Below are positions 11,447 through 26,733 of a stretch of 64,000 nt of DNA, piece by piece (positions within the stretch are counted from its first letter, which is position 1; every line of letters starts with the position of its first letter). The stretch is from Tardiphaga sp. 709 (GTDB lineage: Bacteria; Pseudomonadota; Alphaproteobacteria; Rhizobiales; Xanthobacteraceae): positions 1,550,001 through 1,614,000 of the forward strand of contig NZ_CP135529.1 of assembly GCF_032401055.1 (NCBI RefSeq), written 5' to 3'. The notes under the pieces are model-generated. The model did no database searches, was not told where the DNA came from, and was given only the letters and a program-made list of their open reading frames with translations. The position numbers and the translations under genes were made by a program.

Positions 11447-14020
11447 TCACGACGGTGCCATGGTTTCCTTGACCTTGGCGATCAGCGCGCTCAGGGCGAA
11501 CGGCTTGGCCAGGAAGGCGAATTGCTGGTTTTCAGGCAGGCTCTTTTCGAAGGCTTCTTCGGCGTAACCTGACACGAAGATAATGCGAATATCCGCATTG
11601 CGGGCGCGCATCTCCTTCAGCAGCGTCGGTCCATCCATCTCCGGCATCACCACGTCGGAGACCACGAGATCGATGGCGCCGTTCTGCTCGTCGAACAGCT
11701 CCATCGCTTCGACACCGTTGCCGGCTTCGACCACCGTATAACCGCGCGAGCGCAGACCGCGGGCGTTCAGCGCACGCAGGCCTTCTTCATCTTCGACCAG
11801 CAGGATGGTGCCCTGGCCGGTCAGGTCCGCGCGCGGCTTGGCGTCGGCAGCGGCTTCCTTGGCGGCGACGGCGGCCGCGATCGCCGGGTCGGGAGCAACT
11901 TCTTTTTCCTGATGATGGCGCGGCAGGAAGATGCGGAACGTGGTGCCTTTGCCCGGCTCGGAGTCGACATAAACGAAACCGCCGGTCTGCTTGACGATGC
12001 CGTAGACCGTGGAGAGGCCGAGGCCGGTGCCCTTGCCGACATCCTTGGTGGAGAAGAACGGCTCGAAGATCTTCTCGACGATATCGGCGGGAATGCCAGT
12101 GCCGGTATCGCTGACATCGATACGCACATAGTCCGATGGCGGCATGCCCTTATAGGACAGTCGCCCGGCTTCCTCGGCCGAGACGTTGACGGTGCGCACA
12201 GTCAACGCGCCGCCGTCCGGCATCGCGTCGCGCGCATTGACCGCGAGATTCACGATCACCTGCTCGAATTGCGAGATGTCGACCTTCACCGGCCACAGAT
12301 CGCGGCCGTGCACGACTTCGAGTTTGACCTTCTCGCCGATCAGGCGCTTCAGCAGCAGATCGATATCGGACAGCGCATCGCCAAGATTGAGCACCGTCGG
12401 GCGCAGCGTCTGGCGGCGCGAGAATGCGAGCAACTGGCGCACCAGTGTCGCCGCGCGCGTCGCGTTCTGCTTGATCTGCATGATGTCCTGGAACGACGGA
12501 TCGGTCGGCTTGTGCGCGTTCAGCAGGAAGTCGTTGGCCATCATGATGGCGGAGAGCACGTTGTTGAAGTCATGCGCGATGCCGCCGGCCAACTGGCCGA
12601 TGGTGTCCATCTTCTGGGCCTGGTTGACCTGGTTCTCGAGCGTGCGGCGCTCGGTGGTCTCCAGCATGTAGACGATGGCCGCTTCGGTCTCGCGCTCGTT
12701 CTCCTCCACAGCGGTGACAAAGAACTGTCCCCAGCGCTCCTTGGCACCTTCCAGCAGCGCTTCCACCGGCGGGATATCGCCCTGCCCCTGGGCGGCGTGG
12801 CCGATGGCCGCGACGAGCTGGTTGCGGTCGCGGTCGCTGACGGCGGCGAGGATCGACTTGTTGACCGCGCCGGATGTGTTGAGGCTCTGCGCCAGCTTGG
12901 CGAAACGGGCATTGCCGCGCACCACGGTGCCGTCGCGATCCACCGTCGCAATGGCCATCGGCGTATGGTCGAAGAAGCGCATGAAGCGCACTTCGGCGGC
13001 GCGTTGCGGATCCGAGCGCTCGTCGCGGGCGCGGCTGATGACAAGGGTGCGCGACGCACCCGGCACGCCGTCGGCGCCGAAAGCGAGCTTGTGATAGAGC
13101 CGCACCGGCATGGTCTTGCCGTTACGCATGCGCAGGTCAATGTCGAAGACTTCGGTTTTGACCTCGCCGGGCATCGGCACAATGGATGTCAGCAACGAGG
13201 CGCCGTCACCAGAGACGATGTCGGTCAACTTCAGACCGCCGGAGCCGATCTCGGCAAGATCGTGATCGAGCCAGTTCGCCAACGTGGCGTTGACGTAAAC
13301 CAGCTCGCCCTTTGGATTGACCGAGAAGAAGCCGCAAGGCGCGTGATCGAGATATTCGATGGCGTGCTGCAATTCCTGGAATACGTCTTCCTGGCGTTGC
13401 CGATCGCGGGAAATATCGGCCACCGACCACACCGTGGATTTGGCCTCGCGCTTGCCCTCACCCAGTGGACGCACGCGCATGCGCAGCCAGCGGCCGTGGC
13501 TGCCGTCGGGCGCTGCGACACGGACTTCCTCCTGCTGGCGCTTGCCCTCACGGGCAGCCTTGAGCAGGCGGAAGACGGCTTCGGAGACATCCGGATTACC
13601 GATGAAGACGCGCTCGACCGGTCGCGCATCCTGTGCGGAGGCCGCGCCGGTCAATGTGAGATAGGCAGCATTGGCATAGACCACATGGCCCCGCGCATCG
13701 GTGACCGCGATACCGTCAAAGGCGTGATCGGCCACGGTGCGCATGATCGGATCGTCGGAGGTGCGATCGGCAAAGCGGACAATACCGGCGGCAAAGGCGA
13801 ACAACACGAACAGGCCGACCATCGCCAGCAGCGCCAGCAGGCCCAGAATATAAGGCTGCGCCTGAGCCCGGCCGAGAGTCATGAATGCCACCGCGCAGGC
13901 GATGATCGCGGCGGCAATCAGCAGCACCAGCACGATGCTGCCGCTGCGCCGGGCCGGCTCGTGCAGAACCGGATTCTGCGCCGTCATCGATTGGCGATCG
14001 TGGTCGGTCTCGGCGGTCAT
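11447..14020 (-). CDS. cckA: Cell-cycle hybrid histidine kinase CckA
   Basis: This 857-residue hybrid sensor kinase has two membrane segments at about residues 28-80. Two or three PAS domains follow (about 95-455; [20 protein letters not shown] begins the first). The HisKA domain has the phospho-acceptor His483 in [14 protein letters not shown]. The ATPase domain (about 580-700) contains [18 protein letters not shown] and [15 protein letters not shown] receiver domain closes the protein, with phospho-acceptor Asp789 in [12 protein letters not shown]. This is the CckA layout. CckA autophosphorylates, passes phosphate through ChpT to CtrA and CpdR, and is controlled by DivL/DivK in alphaproteobacteria. 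It follows flhB by 173 bases on the same strand, and CtrA-type boxes occur elsewhere in the window. Confidence 0.92.
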
Positions 14021-17955: not shown

Positions 17956-19032
17956 ATGATGCAATCATCGGTGCAATTTATCTTGGCCTTCGTTGTCGTG
18001 CTGGCGCTGATCGGGCTTACCGCCTGGCTGGTGCGCCGATTCGCCGGCAACCGGCTGGGCAACAACACCAGCCGCGGGCGCTTGCCGCGGCTCGCGGTGA
18101 TCGACGCCGCCGCCGTGGATGGCCGCCGCCGCCTGGTGCTGGTCCGCCGCGACAATGTCGAACATTTGCTGATGATCGGCGGCCCGTCGGACATCGTCGT
18201 CGAGCCCAATATCGTCCGCGCCATGCCCGGCCGCGAGCAGGCCCCGCAGCGCGGCGGCCTCGCCGCCGATGTGGCAAGCCGCGGCCCGTCGCTGCCTGAA
18301 GCCCCGAGCTGGGCAGAGAGCAACGAGTCCGGCTTCGATTCCGAACCGCATGTGCCGGAGCCGGCGCCGCGTCCCGCGCGCCCCTCCTTTATCGAAGAGC
18401 CACGCCGCCCGGCCGCGCCTTTGCCGGAGCGTCGTCCCGATCCGGTCGCCAGCCTCGCGCCGGAGCCTGCGCCGCGCCCCGAACCGGCGCCACGCAACGA
18501 TCTTTTCCCGCAGCGGCCGATTCCGCGAAGTGAAATGCCACGTGCCGAGATGCCACGTAGCGAGCCGATGATGCCGCGCCCGATGCGTGCCGATCCGCCG
18601 ATCCGCACCACGCCGCAGCCCCGCACGCCGGACCGTCCCGTCGCAGCAGCACCGACACCGCCCGCTCCGGTTGTTGCTGCCCCGGCGCCCGCCCCGGTCG
18701 TCGCGCCACCCGCACCGGTCCCTGCTCCCGCTCCGGCAGTCGCCGTGTCGTCTGCCGATCAGAACCTTGCCGATATGGCGCAGCGCCTCGAAGCAGCCTT
18801 GCGTCGCCCTGCCGGCGAAACCCGCCAGGATGCGCCTGAGCCCCGGGTCGGCGCTCCGTCGGTGGCGCCTGAGGCACCATCGATCCGTCCCGCTTCGCGG
18901 TCGCCGGAAGTCTCGATCGCCAGCCCTGCCCGTGCGGAGGCGCCGCCAGTCGTCCCGCCGGTCAAATCGGGTTTTGAAAATCTCGAAGACGAGATGGCCT
19001 CCCTGCTGGGACGGCCGAAGTCCAGTTCGTGA
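17956..19032 (+). CDS. fliO: FliO-like flagellar protein with long proline-rich tail
   Basis: The 358-residue product has one membrane segment at residues 6-24 (FILAFVVVLALIGLTAWLVR). A short FliO domain follows: LPRLAVIDAAAVDGRRRLVL, VRRDNVEHLLMIGGPSDIVV and EPNIV. FliO helps assemble the FliP ring of the export gate. From about residue 90 on, the protein is a long low-complexity Pro/Ala/Arg tail, closing with a short helix (SGFENLEDEMASLLGRP). Most FliO proteins are 100-150 residues, so the tail is unusual. Its stop overlaps the fliP start (GTGA), showing tight coupling. The start at 17956 was chosen at MMQSS, just before the membrane segment. Confidence 0.85.
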   Translation: MMQSSVQFILAFVVVLALIGLTAWLVRRFAGNRLGNNTSRGRLPRLAVIDAAAVDGRRRLVLVRRDNVEHLLMIGGPSDIVVEPNIVRAMPGREQAPQRGGLAADVASRGPSLPEAPSWAESNESGFDSEPHVPEPAPRPARPSFIEEPRRPAAPLPERRPDPVASLAPEPAPRPEPAPRNDLFPQRPIPRSEMPRAEMPRSEPMMPRPMRADPPIRTTPQPRTPDRPVAAAPTPPAPVVAAPAPAPVVAPPAPVPAPAPAVAVSSADQNLADMAQRLEAALRRPAGETRQDAPEPRVGAPSVAPEAPSIRPASRSPEVSIASPARAEAPPVVPPVKSGFENLEDEMASLLGRPKSSS

Positions 19033-19781
19033 GTTCGGCGAACCTCCCGCGTAGAGTATTTTTCCTTTCAGTTCTGATCGCCGCCGGGACCCTCACAGGT
19101 CCCGCGATGGCGCAGGACATCAGCATCAATCTCGGCGGCGGTGGCGGCGGCGTCACCGAACGTGCCGTGCAGATGATTGCGTTGTTGACGGTGCTGTCGA
19201 TCGCACCGTCGATCCTGATCATGATGACGTCATTCACACGCATCGTGGTTGTGCTGTCGCTGTTGCGAACCGCATTGGGTACCGCGACGGCTCCGCCGAA
19301 CTCGGTGATCATCGCGCTGGCGATGTTCCTTACGGCTTTCGTGATGGGGCCGGTGCTGCAACGTTCCTATGACGACGGTATCAAGCCGCTGATCTCCAAC
19401 GACATCACCGTCGAACAAGCCCTGGTGCGTGCATCCATTCCGCTGCGCGGCTTCATGCAGAAGAACGTACGCGAGAAGGATCTCAAGCTGTTCATGGATC
19501 TGTCGGGTGAACCGGTGCCGGCAACACCCGAGGACATGTCGCTGCGGATACTCGTGCCGGCCTTCATGATCTCGGAGCTGAAGCGTGCCTTCGAAATCGG
19601 CTTCCTGCTGTTCCTGCCATTCCTGATCATCGACCTCGTTGTCGCCTCGGTCTTGATGGCGATGGGCATGATGATGCTGCCACCGGCGGTGGTGTCACTG
19701 CCGTTCAAGCTGATCTTCTTCGTGCTGGTGGATGGCTGGTCGCTGGTCGCGGGCAGTCTGGTGCAAAGTTACGGGCAGTAG
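19029..19781 (+). CDS. fliP: Flagellar export gate protein FliP
   Basis: This 250-residue protein has a cleavable signal peptide (to about PAMAQD), a normal FliP trait. The conserved core follows: SFTRIVVVLSLLRTALGTAT, PPNSVIIALAMFLTAFVMGP, and at the end LIIDLVVASVLMAMGMMMLP and PFKLIFFVLVDGWSLVAGSL. Five FliP subunits form the export pore with FliR and FliQ. Translation starts at GTG 19029, overlapping the fliO stop by four bases; this start gives the complete signal peptide. fliP is convergent with the AMIN-like/TPR gene, 12 bases apart. Confidence 0.95.
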   Translation: MSSANLPRRVFFLSVLIAAGTLTGPAMAQDISINLGGGGGGVTERAVQMIALLTVLSIAPSILIMMTSFTRIVVVLSLLRTALGTATAPPNSVIIALAMFLTAFVMGPVLQRSYDDGIKPLISNDITVEQALVRASIPLRGFMQKNVREKDLKLFMDLSGEPVPATPEDMSLRILVPAFMISELKRAFEIGFLLFLPFLIIDLVVASVLMAMGMMMLPPAVVSLPFKLIFFVLVDGWSLVAGSLVQSYGQ

Positions 19782-19793
19782 CGAGGCTCTCGC

Positions 19794-22700
19794 CTACCGC
19801 GTCATCTCGATCTTGCGGACATTGACCACCGGCTGCGGCTTCAGCGAGCCGGTCGGCATCGGATCGGCACTGGCACCCGGCAGGATCGCCTTGGCGCTGC
19901 TTTCGGGGAAGCGCGTCTTCATCTCGCGCAGGAAGCCGTCGAGCGTATCGACGGATGCGGCCATCTTGGCAATGGCGGCGAATTCCGAAGAGTTGGTCGA
20001 GGTCGGCTTGCTCGCGGTGTCGAAGGCGATCTTGTCGGCACCGACATTCATCAGCGGCGCATACTTTTCGCGGAAGCGCGCGAGACCAAGGGCGTCTTCC
20101 GCCAGCGCATAACCCACGACAGCACGGATGATGTCGCTCTTTTCGCTTGGCGTCAGCGGCGAGAAATCCCGCCAGCGGTCGCCATAATAGAGTTCGATCT
20201 GTTCGGAGGCTTCGCGCCAGCGCCGCGACGACCAGTAGATATCCGAGCGGAGCCGGATCGCTTCGCGTCCGCTGACATGAGAGATGATGTCGAGCGCCAG
20301 CTCACGGCGGCCGATGTCACTCTGCGCCCGCGCCTCGAGCAGCAACCGCTGTTGACGCAGCTCGCCATTGAGATCGGCGATCCGCGTGGTCCGCAGCGCG
20401 GCGATAGCGCGGTCGGGCTTGCGGCTCATCAGATAGACCATCGCCAGACGCGCAGCGACCTGCGAGCGTGCAGCGCCTTCGAGACGGTGATCGACCTGAT
20501 ACTGCAGAAGCTCGGCGGCCTGATCGAGCAGATCGACGGCCACGAGACGATCTGCGAGACGGCGGATCATCTCGTCACCGCGGCGGCCGATCGGGGTCAG
20601 CTCGCGAAACTCGTAGAACATCGCCAGCGCATCGACCGGCGGCAGGCTGTCGCCCTTTGGCGACAGATAGATTTGCGAGAACAGCGCCTGCGCCTCATCC
20701 TGGACCTGGCGCGCGGCTTCGCTGTTGGCCTGACGTTCGGTGGCCGTACGGGCGGCCAGCAGCGAGTCATTGTAGCGGCCGAGTTCGGCATACATGCGCG
20801 ACAGGATCTGCAGCACCTGCACTTCCGTGCCGTCGCCGCGCCATGTCACCGCCAGCACTTCTAGATCATGCAGCGCGTCCTCGTTGCTGATCTCGTTGCG
20901 CTTCTGGCGCAAATTGACTTCACGCAGCTTGGCTTCCGCTGCGGATTGACGATCCACCGAACCGGTGACGTCCTGATACTTCGACAGCGCGTCCCTCTCC
21001 CGGCCGAGCGCCTCATCGAGCCAGCCGCTGAGCAGCATGGCCGCGGGCTTGATCTCCGGCGAGATGCCGACCGTTTCGAGCTCACTGCCGCGCGACGACG
21101 CGCCGGCATAGTCCTTGACCTCGAGCGAGGCCCGCAGCGCCAGCATCAAGGCCGCGCGCTGCAGATCGGTCGGCAGCGCGGCGAGCGTGAACTCGGCATT
21201 TTTGAAACGCTCGCGCGCCTCGACCCATTTTTCCTGCTTGGCGTAGGCGAGCGCCTTCCACAATTCACCATCGTAACCCGGCCCGAGCACCGGATTGGCG
21301 ATATCCTTCAGGGTTTGTTCGGGACGCCCCATCATCGCGCTGGCCACCGCATGAACGATCAGCGCGACAGGGCTTTCCTCGCCGACCTTGGTGTCCGCGA
21401 TCGCGAGATCGGCGACGCCCTTGGCCTCGTGATACATGCCGCGCGCCATGTAGAATTTGGCCAGATCCATTCGTGCCTGCGGCAGCGAGCTGGCTTCGGC
21501 TGATGACATCGCGTCGATCAACTCGTCGAAGCGTGCGTTGAATGGGCCTTCCTGATCCTTGCGCCACTGGCCGACATCGAAGATCGGCCGGGCGACCGTC
21601 GAGGCGCGCTGCGGCGCTGCATCGGCTGCCGACAGCGTCAGGCCGCCGGGCTTGGTGAGCATCACCTTGTCGATACTGGCTTCAACGGACACGTCGTCGG
21701 AGTTCACCTGAACCACCACGCCGTGAATCGATTCCAGCAACGAGAATTCGACAAAGTCCTGGCGGCGGATAAAACCGCGCGACGGCGGCAACGCGGTGAT
21801 GATGTTGAGCGTATCGCCGGCATCCGGATCGACTAGGCGATGCTTGAGACCGGGCTTGGCCAATGGCACCTGCACGCTGGCGCGCGAGGGATCGGCAATA
21901 TTGCGCACGGCGGACAACGGCTGCGACGGCGTCTGCCGGGTGTCGGCGAGCATCAGCGACCAGGCCTGTCCTGCGCCGGCGGGATCGTCGGTCGTGAGAG
22001 AGGCCAATTGCGGGCGATTGAGGCGGATGCGGATCGCCTGCCCCTTCTCCAGCGGGATCGTGCTGACATCGGCAATGATCGATCCGCTATCGCGGCGGAT
22101 CGGCGCGGTGTCGATGGGCCGCGTCGAATCTGCCACCAGCCACAGGATATCGCCGCGGCGAAACAGGGCAACCGGCGTTGGCGATGGAAAGGCAAAGGCT
22201 ATGCGCACGCCGTCGCTGCTGCGCTTGACCTCAACCGGCATGCCCGCCGGTTCGGTCGGCGCAGCAGCAACGGGTGCAGCAACAGGGGCCGCCGCAACGA
22301 CAGGCGCAGGCGGCGGTGTTTCTTTCGCAGGAACGACGACAACAGGCTCAGCTACCGGCGCAGGCTTGGCTGATTCAGCGACCTTGGCCGCCTCGGGCTT
22401 TGGCTCTTCCGGCTTCGCTGCCGCGACGGGCGCTGCCGGTGCAGCCGTCGCAACCTCGACTTTCTTCTCCGGAACGATCTCTTTCGCGATCACTTCGGAG
22501 GTCGGCGGCACGATCTCGCCGGAGCGCTGTGCCGGGACACTGGCGGGCTTTTCGACCTCAGGAGGCTTCGCCGCAACCGGCGGTTTCTCGTCCACAGGAG
22601 CGGCCACCGGCAGCTTGGCCAGCGGCGACGGCTTTTCGTTCTGCTGGAAGCCGATGTCGACGACGTAGCTCTTGTCCTCGCGGAACGACTTCACATCGAC

Positions 22701-23474
22701 GTCGCCGATCAAGCCGATCTCGACGGCGGTCCGGTTGCCGTCCATCGCCTGACCGATCGATGCGACATTGGCGGGCGCGGACAGTTTGGCATCGGCGAGA
22801 TCGAACACCAGACCGGCATTGAAGGTCAGCGTCAGCGTCTTCTCGTTCAGCACCGACGACACACCGACGCCGCCGGTCTCGAACACGAAACGCACGAAGG
22901 TCGGCTGTACGGATGCCCGCACACGGATCGGCGGCTTCTTCTGGCTTTCCGCGGCAGCGCGTTGCTGGCGCAAGGCGCGCTCTGCCGCGCGCGCGCGCTC
23001 CGACAATTCCTTGACCACATCCTGCGGCAAACCAGGCGGCATGCCCTTCCAGGTGTCGGGCAACAGATCGATGAAGATGCGCTCGCCCGCCGTCATCGAA
23101 TTGACGGTCACCCTGCGTGACAAAGCGAGACGGATCGCCGTGCCATCGGGATCGCGGCGTGCCGAGCCGATATAGTCCGGGGCGGCGTCACCGAGAATCT
23201 CGACAGGAATATCGACCGGCCGCTTGAAGCGAATGACGAGAATGGTGCCGGCTTGCGTCACCTCGGACTCCACGTCCTCAGCAAGCTTCAGCACGATGCG
23301 ACCATAGCCGCCCGACGTGCCCATGCTGGCGGTGCCCCTCACCGCTTGCGCAGATGCGGCATCCGGGAACGACAGCGCAAGACAGACAATGCCCGCGACG
23401 ACGACACAACGTCGAACGGCCCGCGTCCATGCGCGAGCTTGCGTCCAACATGCAACGGCAGCCGTCCGTGCCAT
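19794..23474 (-). CDS. Giant exported AMIN-like/TPR protein of the flagellar locus
   Basis: This 1226-residue protein has a signal peptide ending near DAASAQA (residue 42). The first half looks like serial beta-rich domains. An AMIN-like unit (about 50-140) ends in AGERIFIDLLPDTW; a second (about 185-285) ends in YVVDIGF. A 130-residue Pro/Ala/Lys/Glu linker and two more beta-rich stretches (about 415-515 and 535-620) follow. The second half (about 640-1190) is helical with TPR-like repeats such as ALIVHAVASAMMGRPEQTLK and LMYLMSRKPDRAIAALRTTR-like units. It is the last gene of the fliL-fliM-DUF6468-motE unit, 99 bases after motE. By place and layout it could be a periplasmic stator or motor scaffold; no defined family name is recognised. 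Confidence 0.8.
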   Translation of the reverse strand: MARTAAVACWTQARAWTRAVRRCVVVAGIVCLALSFPDAASAQAVRGTASMGTSGGYGRIVLKLAEDVESEVTQAGTILVIRFKRPVDIPVEILGDAAPDYIGSARRDPDGTAIRLALSRRVTVNSMTAGERIFIDLLPDTWKGMPPGLPQDVVKELSERARAAERALRQQRAAAESQKKPPIRVRASVQPTFVRFVFETGGVGVSSVLNEKTLTLTFNAGLVFDLADAKLSAPANVASIGQAMDGNRTAVEIGLIGDVDVKSFREDKSYVVDIGFQQNEKPSPLAKLPVAAPVDEKPPVAAKPPEVEKPASVPAQRSGEIVPPTSEVIAKEIVPEKKVEVATAAPAAPVAAAKPEEPKPEAAKVAESAKPAPVAEPVVVVPAKETPPPAPVVAAAPVAAPVAAAPTEPAGMPVEVKRSSDGVRIAFAFPSPTPVALFRRGDILWLVADSTRPIDTAPIRRDSGSIIADVSTIPLEKGQAIRIRLNRPQLASLTTDDPAGAGQAWSLMLADTRQTPSQPLSAVRNIADPSRASVQVPLAKPGLKHRLVDPDAGDTLNIITALPPSRGFIRRQDFVEFSLLESIHGVVVQVNSDDVSVEASIDKVMLTKPGGLTLSAADAAPQRASTVARPIFDVGQWRKDQEGPFNARFDELIDAMSSAEASSLPQARMDLAKFYMARGMYHEAKGVADLAIADTKVGEESPVALIVHAVASAMMGRPEQTLKDIANPVLGPGYDGELWKALAYAKQEKWVEARERFKNAEFTLAALPTDLQRAALMLALRASLEVKDYAGASSRGSELETVGISPEIKPAAMLLSGWLDEALGRERDALSKYQDVTGSVDRQSAAEAKLREVNLRQKRNEISNEDALHDLEVLAVTWRGDGTEVQVLQILSRMYAELGRYNDSLLAARTATERQANSEAARQVQDEAQALFSQIYLSPKGDSLPPVDALAMFYEFRELTPIGRRGDEMIRRLADRLVAVDLLDQAAELLQYQVDHRLEGAARSQVAARLAMVYLMSRKPDRAIAALRTTRIADLNGELRQQRLLLEARAQSDIGRRELALDIISHVSGREAIRLRSDIYWSSRRWREASEQIELYYGDRWRDFSPLTPSEKSDIIRAVVGYALAEDALGLARFREKYAPLMNVGADKIAFDTASKPTSTNSSEFAAIAKMAASVDTLDGFLREMKTRFPESSAKAILPGASADPMPTGSLKPQPVVNVRKIEMTR

Positions 23475-23573: not shown

Positions 23574-24344
23574 TTAATTCCGGCCCTGCTGGATCGGCCT
23601 GCCTTCGATCTTGGGCAGTTCGACCGCCGCGGCAGATCGTTCGCCGCCCGAGGCGCGACGCGCCAGTTCAACGGTGAGGCGTTCAGCGGCCTCCGGCTGC
23701 ATCAGACCGAGAATGTCGGACATCTTCCGAGGCGCGATCTGCGAGGCGATCTCGAACAGCACCGGCATTTCCAGCCGGTCGAAGATCTTCGCGGCGTCCT
23801 TCGGCTTCATGCTTTCATACATGGTGACGATGCCCTTGAAGCGGGCGGCATCGACTTCGCTCTTCTGGTCGTTCGCCGTCTTGATACCGGCTTCGACGCC
23901 CTTCAATTCATCGACGCGGGTTTCGATGCGCTTCTCGGCGGCCTTCAGCAGGCTCTCGCGGATGTCGATCTCGCGGGCACGCGCTTCCAGCTCCTGACGG
24001 CGCGCTTGCAGCCGTTCGAGGATCGCGCGTTCAGCAGGCGAGATTTGAGGAGACAGTTCGACAGGCGGATTGCTGGTCGGTTCAATCGCTGCAGGCGCAG
24101 CCACCGCGGGCTTCGGCTCTTCCTTCTTGGCTGACACCGAACCGGTAATGTCGCCGTCCGTTGGCTTGCCGCCCGGGAAGTTGAACATCTCCTGCGCCCA
24201 CGATCCTTTCGTAGGCTGCGGCTGCGGATCGTAGTTGAACACGTAGCCGCCATCGATCACCAGGCCGGCGATCTTGAGAATCGCCAGCCCGAAAACCGCC
24301 ACCAAGACGACAGGAAGAATACGAACGTCCCGAAAAGCTTTCAT
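23574..24344 (-). CDS. motE: MotE-like flagellar motility chaperone
   Basis: This 256-residue protein has one N-terminal membrane or signal segment (residues 9-31). A variable Pro-rich stretch is followed by a long coiled coil (about residues 100-175, ERLQARRQELEARAREIDIR), then an MgtE-N-like helical domain, YESMKPKDAAKIFDRLEMPV and ASQIAPRKMSDILGLMQPEA. This is the MotE/COG3334 layout. In Sinorhizobium MotE is a periplasmic chaperone for MotC, which acts in flagellar rotation. Here it overlaps DUF6468 by four bases (ATGA), and the AMIN-like/TPR gene follows. Confidence 0.82.
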   Translation of the reverse strand: MKAFRDVRILPVVLVAVFGLAILKIAGLVIDGGYVFNYDPQPQPTKGSWAQEMFNFPGGKPTDGDITGSVSAKKEEPKPAVAAPAAIEPTSNPPVELSPQISPAERAILERLQARRQELEARAREIDIRESLLKAAEKRIETRVDELKGVEAGIKTANDQKSEVDAARFKGIVTMYESMKPKDAAKIFDRLEMPVLFEIASQIAPRKMSDILGLMQPEAAERLTVELARRASGGERSAAAVELPKIEGRPIQQGRN

Positions 24345-24778
24345 GCAGCGATGCCGTCAGGCCTCCTCCGCTCGGCAAACGCCTGCGCTGCCGCGGCATT
24401 GGCCCGCGCTGCGGACACCCGCGGCGCATCAGGGTCGGTTTCGGTGAGCGGCCGTGCCGCCACCGCGATCTTCGACAGCCGGCGCACGACAGCGTCGCTC
24501 TCGGCGAGCTGGGCTTTCAGTTGATCGGCCAGCGCTGTTGCCGCCGAAATCTGGCTGCCGAGATTCTCATTGACGTCGCGCACGGTAAGCTTGAGTCCGC
24601 CGATCGCACGCTCGGCGATCTCGGTCACGGTGATGAGCTCGCCGATCGTGGCCTTCAACGATTGCTCGTCCGCCTTGAGGCGCTTCAGGCGCTTATTGAG
24701 CAACATGCAATAGGCGATGGTCAGGATCAGAAGCACTGCAACCAGGCTCTCGATCACAATTCCTAATGAATGACTCAT
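24341..24778 (-). CDS. DUF6468 family protein, flagellar-locus membrane protein
   Basis: This 145-residue protein has an N-terminal membrane segment (VIESLVAVLLILTIAYCMLL). A coiled-coil-prone part follows: LNKRLKRLKADEQSLKATIG and LITVTEIAERAIGGLKLTV. The tail is Ala-rich. It is the family found next to fliM in many alphaproteobacteria and annotated DUF6468. Its start codon overlaps the fliM stop, and its stop overlaps the motE start (ATGA both times), so synthesis is probably coupled with both. The role is unknown; a membrane partner of the motor or switch is a reasonable guess. Confidence 0.8.
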   Translation of the reverse strand: MSHSLGIVIESLVAVLLILTIAYCMLLNKRLKRLKADEQSLKATIGELITVTEIAERAIGGLKLTVRDVNENLGSQISAATALADQLKAQLAESDAVVRRLSKIAVAARPLTETDPDAPRVSAARANAAAAQAFAERRRPDGIAA

Positions 24779-25974
24779 TGTGCCTCCATCAATTTAGTTT
24801 GCTCATCAGCCTTCTCAAACATGGCGAAGGTTGTGTTAGGCTTGCGCAATTGTTTCGTGACTCTAATGGCAACGCGGTCGCCGACACGGCCCATGCGACC
24901 TTCAGTCAAGGTCACAGCTCCGCAACGCACGGCGACAAGAGCATCCGCCCGCATTTCCAGCGGCAGCGTATCGCCCACTTTGAGAAGCATCAGCTGCTTC
25001 AACGGGATCTCTGCCTCATACAGCACCGCGTCCACGGCGATCTCGGCCTGAGCAATTTCAGTGGCGAGATGGCTTTCCCAGATCGGATCACGGCCGAATT
25101 TTTCGCCCATGAACATCTGCATGAGCACGGCGCGGATCGGTTCGATCGTCGCATAGGGCAGCAGCAATTCGATATTGCCGCCGCGGTCTTCCATGTCGAT
25201 GTGCAGGCGCACCAGGATGGCAGCATTGGCTGGACGGCTGATGGCGGCGAAGCGCGGATTGGTCTCAAGCCGGTCGATGGTGAAGGCCACGGGCGACAGT
25301 GGCCGGAACGCCTGCTCGGCATCCGCCAGCACGACTTCGATCAGACGCTTCACCAGATTGGTTTCGATGGTGGTATAGGGACGGCCCTCGATGCGCAGCG
25401 AGGCCTGACCACGACGGCCGCCGAGCAGCACGTCGATCATCGAATAGATCAGGCTGGAATCGACGGTGGCGAGGCCAAAATTCTCCCACTCCTCTGCCTT
25501 GAACACACACAGCACGGCAGGCAGCGGAATCGAGTTCATATAGTCGCCGAAACGCACCGAAGTGATGCGATCGAGCGAGACTTCGACGTTGTCGGAGGTG
25601 AAATTGCGCAGGCTCGTGGTCATCAACCGCACCAGACGGTCGAACACGATTTCGAGCATCGGCAGACGCTCATACGACACCATCGAGGAATCGATGATGG
25701 CGCGAATGCCGGAATTTTCGTCGAGATGGACCTCGTTGACGCTGAAGCCGAGGAGGTTGTCGATTTCCTCCTGCGAGAGAACGCGCTCGCCGCCGTTCTT
25801 GCCGCCGCCGATATCGCGACCGCCGTCCTCGACCATGGCGGCCCATTGCTCCGCCATGGTGCCGGTGAGTTCGTTTTCGGCAGCCGCTTTCGCCGCCTCA
25901 ACGGGATCCTCTGAATCCAGAGAAGCTTCCCATTCAGCGGCAATTGCGTCCTGATCGACCTGTTCGGTAGACAT
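24775..25974 (-). CDS. fliM: Flagellar motor switch protein FliM
   Basis: This 399-residue switch protein carries the FliM middle domain (SYERLPMLEIVFDRLVRLMT, then PLPAVLCVFKAEEWENFGLA) and a C-terminal SPOA domain (QLMLLKVGDTLPLEMRADAL). FliM binds FliG and CheY-P in the C ring and sets rotation direction. Oddly, the LSQEEIDNLL motif, which normally starts at about residue 6 and binds CheY-P, lies at residues 66-75 behind an acidic extension. It is 19 bases from fliL and overlaps DUF6468 by four. The ATG at 25974 was chosen because upstream in-frame options are non-ATG. Confidence 0.93.
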   Translation of the reverse strand: MSTEQVDQDAIAAEWEASLDSEDPVEAAKAAAENELTGTMAEQWAAMVEDGGRDIGGGKNGGERVLSQEEIDNLLGFSVNEVHLDENSGIRAIIDSSMVSYERLPMLEIVFDRLVRLMTTSLRNFTSDNVEVSLDRITSVRFGDYMNSIPLPAVLCVFKAEEWENFGLATVDSSLIYSMIDVLLGGRRGQASLRIEGRPYTTIETNLVKRLIEVVLADAEQAFRPLSPVAFTIDRLETNPRFAAISRPANAAILVRLHIDMEDRGGNIELLLPYATIEPIRAVLMQMFMGEKFGRDPIWESHLATEIAQAEIAVDAVLYEAEIPLKQLMLLKVGDTLPLEMRADALVAVRCGAVTLTEGRMGRVGDRVAIRVTKQLRKPNTTFAMFEKADEQTKLMEAQ

Positions 25975-25993: not shown

Positions 25994-26485
25994 TCACTGA
26001 ATGAGGATTTCCTTGAACAGCACAGCGTTCACGTGATGAGGAGAGATCGCGGCATTGACGCGCCGCGTCAGCTCTTCCTTCAACCGGAACATGCCAACGG
26101 AGCCGTTCAGATCGGTGGTGCGCAGTTCGCGCAGGTAAACCTGGAACATGTCGGTGATACGCGGCATCGACGGCGTGATCTGCGCCACCAGCGGCGCTTC
26201 CTTCACCTCGAGCACGATCTTGGCCTTGAGATATTGCACACGCTCGCCGGGCTGACCGGCAAGGTTCACCAAAATCTCCGGCACATCGATGAAGGCGAGC
26301 GGCTTCGCAGCCGGCGCCGCCTCTTTCTTCTCTTCCTTGGGGTGCCCCTTCAGGAAGAACCAGCCGCCACCGCCCGCTGCAAGCACCAGCACGCCCGCGA
26401 CGATTGCGATCAGCTTGAATTTGCTCTTGGGAGCTGCCGCCTCGTCCCCGGTCGGGGTGCTTTCTGAAGTTTCCGTATCCGCCAT
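25994..26485 (-). CDS. fliL: Flagellar basal body-associated protein FliL
   Basis: This 163-residue protein has a cytosolic Thr/Glu-rich start, one membrane segment (KFKLIAIVAGVLVLAAGGGG, about residues 23-43) and a periplasmic FliL domain. Typical motifs are FIDVPEILVNLAG, YLKAKIVLEV and a final VNAVLFKEILIQ. FliL rings the stator units and supports torque. The start at 26485 follows a GGCAGG site and avoids a 38-residue upstream frame extension without family similarity. It leads the fliL-fliM-DUF6468-motE unit. Confidence 0.93.
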   Translation of the reverse strand: MADTETSESTPTGDEAAAPKSKFKLIAIVAGVLVLAAGGGGWFFLKGHPKEEKKEAAPAAKPLAFIDVPEILVNLAGQPGERVQYLKAKIVLEVKEAPLVAQITPSMPRITDMFQVYLRELRTTDLNGSVGMFRLKEELTRRVNAAISPHHVNAVLFKEILIQ

Positions 26486-26733
26486 CGCCTGCCCGTCCGG
26501 GGTTGGGATGAGCTCGATGCTGCAAAGCAGGCAATAAAGACGCGATACAAAATGCTGCCAGCGCCCAAGGCCCTGTGTGATCGTGACGCTAGGTCGCAAT
26601 GGTTAACGGAATCTTTCTTTTAACGCTCAACTAGGAAAATTCTGCCGGCAAATATGGTCAATAAGACCTTTCTGCCGCCCGTTTTCGCGCCTCCAAAACT
26701 ACCAACAAATTGAAAAATATCAGCTTTTTGACT

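Follow-up and report, generated by a model that had tools for sequence, protein, structure and literature searches.

What does a 1226-residue exported protein do at the end of a flagellar gene cluster, and does it belong to the machinery that turns the flagellum? The question is raised by a 64,000-nucleotide stretch of the Tardiphaga sp. 709 genome (contig NZ_CP135529.1, positions 1,550,001 to 1,614,000; hereafter the window), in which the open reading frame (ORF) at 19794-23474 encodes the protein that we label P. The ORF lies on the minus strand, a detail that an earlier note on this DNA did not give, and starts with ATG; the plus-strand reading of the same interval is interrupted by several stops. 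P is the last gene of the same-strand cluster fliL-fliM-DUF6468(pflI)-motE, so the large exported protein that the earlier note placed behind these genes is confirmed by the ORF, the gene order and an export signal judged by hydropathy. Our answer is that P is quite probably a spoke and stator scaffold of the FssB family in the window's flagellar motor, which is taken to be polar or subpolar.

The name comes from Caulobacter. A Caulobacter genome was sought via DivK (solved as 1m5t), for which the class draws peaked at 82% and 88%. In genome G610, from the family of the 88% genome, DivK is 100% identical to that of C. crescentus over 125 residues; four other genomes carry a 99% DivK, so the species of G610 is not proven. 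The P-family profile finds one ORF in G610 (3.3e-231, 958 residues), which aligns with P by blastp at 30% identity over P residues 416-1189 (774 residues, E 2.9e-99). The gene order there is fliL-fliM-pflI-motE followed by the P homologue, and the motE product is 264 residues long, as is MotE of C. crescentus (PMC13023049), in which CC_2059 and CC_2058 adjoin (PMC13023049, PMC11870540). From DivK, the length of MotE and synteny, we infer that the G610 ORF is FssB/CC_2058. P is filed as an FssB-family protein because of its similarity to, and the gene order shared with, this presumed CC_2058: its gene directly follows motE of fliL-fliM-pflI-motE, just as in G610. P also carries a Sec signal (by hydropathy and cleavage motif) and a TPR superhelix (in the model), the two features stated for FssB, the product of CC_2058 (PMC7885107). 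The similarity extends over the third AMIN domain, the extra beta domain and the TPR half of P, and the two proteins share an AMIN + TPR layout. However, P is longer (1226 against 958 residues), has three AMIN domains rather than two, and has a longer linker.

According to PMC7885107, FssB is required for stator activity; its deletion leaves the filaments assembled but without rotation, like deletion of motB, and suppresses the mechanical activation of adhesion. The stator or motor scaffold role proposed earlier for P therefore draws support, by analogy, from its closest studied homologue, and the protein said to have no recognisable name belongs to a known family. P would thereby be assigned to a family, with a mechanism and a phenotype transferred by homology.

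The features of P, from the whole gene to its parts, are as follows.

19794..23474, minus strand: P, FssB-family periplasmic AMIN/TPR protein, 1226 residues (ORF, translation, family searches)
23349..23474, minus strand: signal peptide, Sec-type, residues 1-42 (A-S-A/Q) (sequence, hydropathy)
23049..23348, minus strand: AMIN domain 1, residues 43-142 (match to solved AMIN domains)
22944..23024, minus strand: long helix joining AMIN domains 1 and 2, residues 151-177 (structure models)
22677..22937, minus strand: AMIN domain 2, residues 180-266 (hhalign and family-derived AMIN hidden Markov model, HMM)
22251..22676, minus strand: Pro/Ala/charged linker, residues 267-408, predicted disordered (predicted local distance difference test, pLDDT, mostly <50; composition)
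21987..22250, minus strand: AMIN domain 3, residues 409-496 (hhalign, AMIN HMM, strands in the model)
21639..21977, minus strand: extra beta domain, fold unassigned, low confidence, residues 500-612 (model)
19896..21575, minus strand: TPR-like superhelix, 33 predicted helices, residues 634-1193 (model, Pfam TPR_2)
20415..20594, minus strand: most conserved block, residues 961-1020 (ELTPIGRRGDEMIRRLADRLVAVDLLDQAAELL region), proposed docking face (family alignment)

The serial AMIN-like domains, Pro/Ala linker and TPR-like half read earlier from the sequence are all recovered, as three AMIN domains, the linker and a predicted 33-helix superhelix. The sole hydrophobic stretch of P is covered by 19-residue windows starting at residues 18-24 and is followed by A-S-A|Q at residues 40-43; the export signal was judged by this hydropathy and cleavage motif, not by signal-peptide software. 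AMIN domain 1 matches solved AMIN domains by fold. An AMIN HMM built from the P family places the domains at 44-129, 180-266 and 409-496, and the three are mutually related (hhalign 96-99%; 99.2% between AMIN 1 and 2, 97.6% between AMIN 2 and 3). No similarity to them was detectable by hhalign for the beta domain at 500-612, in which the pLDDT per block is mostly 23-58, with one block at 75. Residues 263-408 contain 32 Ala and 29 Pro among 146. The model of the TPR half comprises about 16 TPR-like helical pairs, with pLDDT (blocks of ten) of 79-94 to about residue 992 and 59-83 thereafter; Pfam TPR_2 matches 14 of 27 family members at E ≤0.01 and, on P alone, stays below the Pfam cut-off. In the alignment of P with 26 relatives (27-82% identity; 27 rows), residues 961-1020 have a mean conservation of 0.82 and 0.73 per 30 residues, and this block is proposed as a candidate contact face. 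Searches of Pfam, NCBIfam and PDB sequences with P gave no naming match above cut-off; matching to caspase-8 (E 0.16 or worse) was put down to chance.

A fold comparison leads to the same kind of protein by a different route. When the full P model was searched with Foldseek against 350,542 solved chains, 9hmf_K came first (E 1.2e-10, 901 columns, 773 residues), followed by a TPR protein of a transcription complex (5.0e-7) and then many others, with 9hmf_L at 1.3e-5. The entry 9HMF is the periplasmic scaffold of C. jejuni (PMC12222027), and the chain length, together with the description given there, suggests that 9hmf_K is PflA, which was modelled from residue 16 as a beta-sandwich, a linker and 16 TPRs (PMC12222027). 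The predicted layout of P, an N-terminal AMIN beta-sandwich, a linker and a long TPR superhelix, resembles that described for PflA (N-terminal AMIN beta-sandwich, flexible linker, superhelix of 16-17 TPRs; PMC12222027, PMC11870540, PMC13023049), except that PflA has one AMIN domain and P has three. Structure prediction and fold search thus bear out the PflA-like, beta-then-TPR layout suggested for P. The overall superposition of P on 9hmf_K is poor and the global TM (template modelling) score low, as flexible domains would give, and a matching arrangement of the domains is not implied. When the full model was compared by VIA-align, the matches were TPR proteins and others built of helical repeats; 9hmf is unlisted, which is not read as evidence. 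A phmmer search of P against PDB chain sequences, a single-sequence search made with no PflA profile, returned no flagellar chain at E ≤1.

PflA, which has PflB as its binding partner, forms spokes that are described as linking the E-ring (FlgY) with the stator ring and positioning the stators (PMC12222027, PMC13023049). MotC, MotK, CC_2058 and PflA are treated as structural homologues (PMC11870540, PMC13023049), and with the PflA comparison for CC_2058, MotK and MotC in print in these two papers, the kind of protein to which P belongs is already known. According to PMC11870540, in which CC_2058 and MotK served as BLAST queries in alphaproteobacteria, neither the sequences nor the gene order of PflA and PflB homologues are conserved between taxa.

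How widely, then, is P itself distributed? The nearest named records are those of Tardiphaga robiniae LMG 26467 (99%) and Bradyrhizobium sp. NFR13 (98%). Of 61 nearer genomes, 44 contain a P homologue, as do 104 of 190 class-wide genomes (own genome counted in both; 4 of the 104 rest on E >1e-8); with the 26 aligned relatives, these counts set the ORF apart from a chance reading frame. FliM (PF02154) is matched in 108 of the 190. P and FliM occur together in 99 genomes, P only in 5, FliM only in 9 and neither in 77 (Fisher p 3e-36, which is not a corrected probability, the genomes being related). The two matches lie ≤12 kb apart in 71 of the 99 genomes, on different contigs in 25, and further apart on the same contig in 3. 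By these profile matches, one sequence family apparently spans 99 of the 108 FliM-bearing genomes, and the observation seems to be new.

Gene order was followed with profiles made from the window's neighbours on 67 family loci, the window's own included: 40 from the window's order (own-order), 24 from the class outside that order and 3 from plasmids. Half of the own-order loci (20/40) and 17 of the 24 class loci were hand-picked from match lists and are not a random draw. MotE is encoded ≤300 bases upstream of P in 35 own-order loci and ≤7 kb upstream in 37; two of the remaining three have <0.5 kb of upstream sequence and the third (L026) has 3.7 kb. The corresponding counts for the class loci are 3/24 and 16/24, and the eight loci left include six with <1.5 kb upstream, besides L142 (2.7 kb) and L143 (4.4 kb). 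When only the 35 loci with ≥4 kb upstream are considered, a same-strand MotE gene lies upstream in 16/16 own-order, 15/16 class and 1/3 plasmid loci, and the counts for FliM are identical. Since the P family is largely conserved in sequence and order within Alphaproteobacteria, profile searches and synteny can be used to locate spoke genes there.

Plasmids searched by tblastn for P yielded five records, of which three were examined, from Azospirillum sp. B510, Alloyangia pacifica and Erythrobacter aureus. All three carry a P homologue, annotated as hypothetical, within a flagellar cluster:

8818-10665 of L128: FssB-family gene, Alloyangia plasmid
5741-8077 of L129: FssB-family gene, Azospirillum plasmid
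6533-8179 of L130: FssB-family gene, Erythrobacter plasmid

The P-family HMM scores these homologues at 5.5e-30, 2.7e-49 and 2.4e-70, respectively. Against TPR controls from the own genome it gave one match at E ≤10, at 4.9e-5; the controls are the longest ORFs at 24 own-genome TPR_19 matches, each presumed to be the TPR-coding frame (18 entries once identical ends were removed, 15 distinct proteins). On the Azospirillum sp. B510 plasmid the P homologue stands just before motA-motB; the lateral cluster of A. brasilense is described as being without motC and motE (PMC8429497). AMIN is undetected in four members of the P family (L128, L130, L141 and L150), all of which lie in flagellar clusters.

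A link to the stator is found in gene order as well. Two tandem MotB-like genes directly precede the P homologue in 14 of the 24 class loci:

L041, L042, L043, L134-L139, L144-L147 and L150: loci with the MotB-like pair

Three of the 10 class loci without the pair have <0.7 kb of upstream sequence, and in L134 the P gene probably begins later than the ORF start taken here, which falls within the MotB gene. The second gene of the pair has an Asp in its membrane segment in 14/14 loci; the first is without it in 13/14 (L146 keeps the Asp). We take this residue to be the channel Asp of MotB, and a heterodimeric MotB formed from the tandem pair is possible. With a MotB-like gene just upstream in 14/24 class loci, the P family is tied to the stator independently of any structure.

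A partner suggested by the neighbourhood is MotE. Initially reported to chaperone MotC, this protein is now proposed to be a subunit of the E-ring (PMC13023049). In Cereibacter, MotE binds the AMIN + TPR protein MotK, which also binds MotB2; MotE is unstable without MotK, both are found at the flagellated pole, MotE-sfGFP even when MotK is absent, and MotK localisation requires MotA2/MotB2 (PMC10954123). MotK of the Cereibacter sphaeroides Fla2 system resembles P in being a periplasmic AMIN + TPR protein encoded in a motE/pflI cluster; it is needed for rotation, and differs from P in its length (652 residues), its one AMIN-like region and the position of its gene after motA2 (PMC10954123). From Rhodobacterales, the order to which Cereibacter belongs, the comparison covered the Alloyangia homologue given above. 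The link with MotE proposed earlier for P is thus supported, within the reach of sequence analysis and studied relatives: P adjoins motE, and MotK binds MotE. With MotE proposed as an E-ring subunit, "partner" fits P better than "client".

In the mechanism that we propose, P would be exported by Sec and retained in the periplasm, where its AMIN domains would bind, at the rim, either the cell wall or partners in the scaffold, and the linker would give reach. The TPR superhelix would form an inward spoke meeting the MotE E-ring around the MS-ring, and the MotAB stators, with FliL, would thereby be recruited and held at their working radius. By analogy, P would act like FssB, MotK and PflA, in the same place and with the same partners, and would be oriented as PflA is, with the AMIN end outward and the TPR end toward the MotE ring. 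Contact of the AMIN domains with peptidoglycan is likewise presumed; the AMIN domain of AmiC is described as peptidoglycan-binding (PMC10954123).

That description, together with the three AMIN domains of P, also suits a different role, in which P anchors to the outer envelope or peptidoglycan and opens or braces the wall round the motor, so that any effect on the stators is indirect. We give this little likelihood, given that the four members without a detectable AMIN are still in flagellar clusters, that P directly follows a MotB-like gene in so many class loci, and that fssB mutants assemble filaments (PMC7885107). Also unlikely is a reading in which P bears no load and chiefly serves the assembly or stability of MotE (or is itself chaperoned by MotE), with the stators needing MotE only. 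The original description of MotE as a MotC chaperone (PMC13023049) and its instability in Cereibacter without MotK (PMC10954123) would both be expected in that case, but MotE-sfGFP reaches the pole where MotK resides even without MotK (PMC10954123), loss of fssB resembles loss of motB (PMC7885107), and P combines great length with a PflA-like layout. Were P a general TPR envelope protein that sits in the flagellar cluster by chance, this would explain why its TPR half matches many unrelated TPR proteins, TPR profiles being promiscuous. Such a coincidence is highly improbable in view of the co-occurrence with FliM (99/108, relatedness uncorrected), the gene order kept in most loci, and the presence of the family in the flagellar clusters of the Azospirillum, Alloyangia and Erythrobacter plasmids.

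The spoke and stator scaffold of the FssB family might have a wider meaning. Rather doubtful, but worth stating, is the idea that most flagellated alphaproteobacteria have in common a single spoke protein recognisable by sequence (FssB/MotK family), which with the MotE E-ring makes up their ancestral stator scaffold; that in many of them its gene shares a unit with the genes of a heterodimeric MotB, one subunit being without the ion-channel Asp; that the number of AMIN domains (0-3) tunes anchoring to the wall; and that filament load is sensed via the spoke. If true, load sensing through the spoke would explain why fssB is needed in mechanical surface signalling.

The own genome offers a comparison, for it carries a second, rhizobial-type flagellar cluster (G000 C1:3375000-3414999; L131, L132) with the gene groups motB-motC-fliK and flgA-flgI-motE-flgH-fliL-fliP. 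The MotE of this cluster (218 residues) is matched by the window-MotE profile at 3.3e-33, the training set of which may include it, and passes the MgtE_N cut-off. Its MotC is matched by NF009441 ("chemotaxis protein", PRK12798 set) at 6.2e-159, above cut-off, and by NF009442 ("MotC") at 1e-76, below cut-off. In B. diazoefficiens, the lateral flagellar cluster is likewise reported to encode motC and motE, and the subpolar motor rotates both ways while the lateral motor rotates one way (PMC8429497). MotC of Sinorhizobium is, as proposed for P, a TPR-rich partner of a MotE, but P has no match to the NCBIfam MotC (PRK12798) models at E ≤1 and its TPR similarity is only generic: the profile-profile comparison of the TPR half with MotC gives 56% and E 1.1e-4, against up to 81% and 1.3e-5 for the single-sequence TPR controls, and the P-family HMM matched no MotC row at E ≤10. 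Sequence homology between P and MotC was rejected, the similarity by hhalign and HMM not rising above these controls. Among the genomes searched for both, those with MotC are the own genome, G037, G058 and G059; of these four, only the own genome has P as well. A strict either-or rule for P and MotC is not claimed, as the FliM-only genome G072 (L133) has no MotC, P or MotE in the 20 kb around fliM. Two motors encoded in one genome, each with its own MotE and with different TPR partners (P and MotC), offer a natural setting in which the contribution of the partner could be tested.

The presence of P beside one MotE and of MotC with the other within one two-motor genome is apparently new within the literature searched. 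The same applies to the class-wide family counts, to the array of three AMIN domains and, outside the window's order, to the MotB pair with an Asp-less member upstream of P. No description of P in Tardiphaga or Bradyrhizobium, or of the Asp-less MotB pair, was found in the literature, a weak absence given that the supplementary tables of PMC11870540 may list some of these genes.

The genes around P in the window are as follows.

23574..24344, minus strand: motE, 256 residues, FlgY/FlbB-type E-ring protein (NCBIfam/Pfam; adjoins P in relatives)
24341..24778, minus strand: DUF6468 protein in the pflI position (Pfam DUF6468 2.5e-20)
24775..25914, minus strand: fliM of the first flagellar system, start possibly further upstream (TIGR01397 1.2e-91)
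25994..26533, minus strand: fliL, start possibly further upstream (Pfam FliL 1.5e-18)
19029..19781, plus strand: fliP, convergent with P and 12 bases apart (Pfam FliP 4.6e-80)

The window MotE is recognised by its matches to NCBIfam FlbB (7.1e-7) and Pfam MgtE_N (0.0073), neither of which reaches the curated cut-off, and the name pflI is taken from the Cereibacter gene order (PMC10954123), not from a comparison with PflI. fliM/DUF6468 and DUF6468/motE each share 4 bases, and the gap between motE and P is 99 bases long. Far from this cluster, at G000 C1:6048123-6048281 (L208), lies the genome's only other MotB_plug match; the gene may encode the stator of the window's motor. Also in the flagellar region of the window, beside flhB, the minus strand at 11447-14020 encodes an 857-residue hybrid histidine kinase with PAS, HisKA, HATPase and receiver domains.

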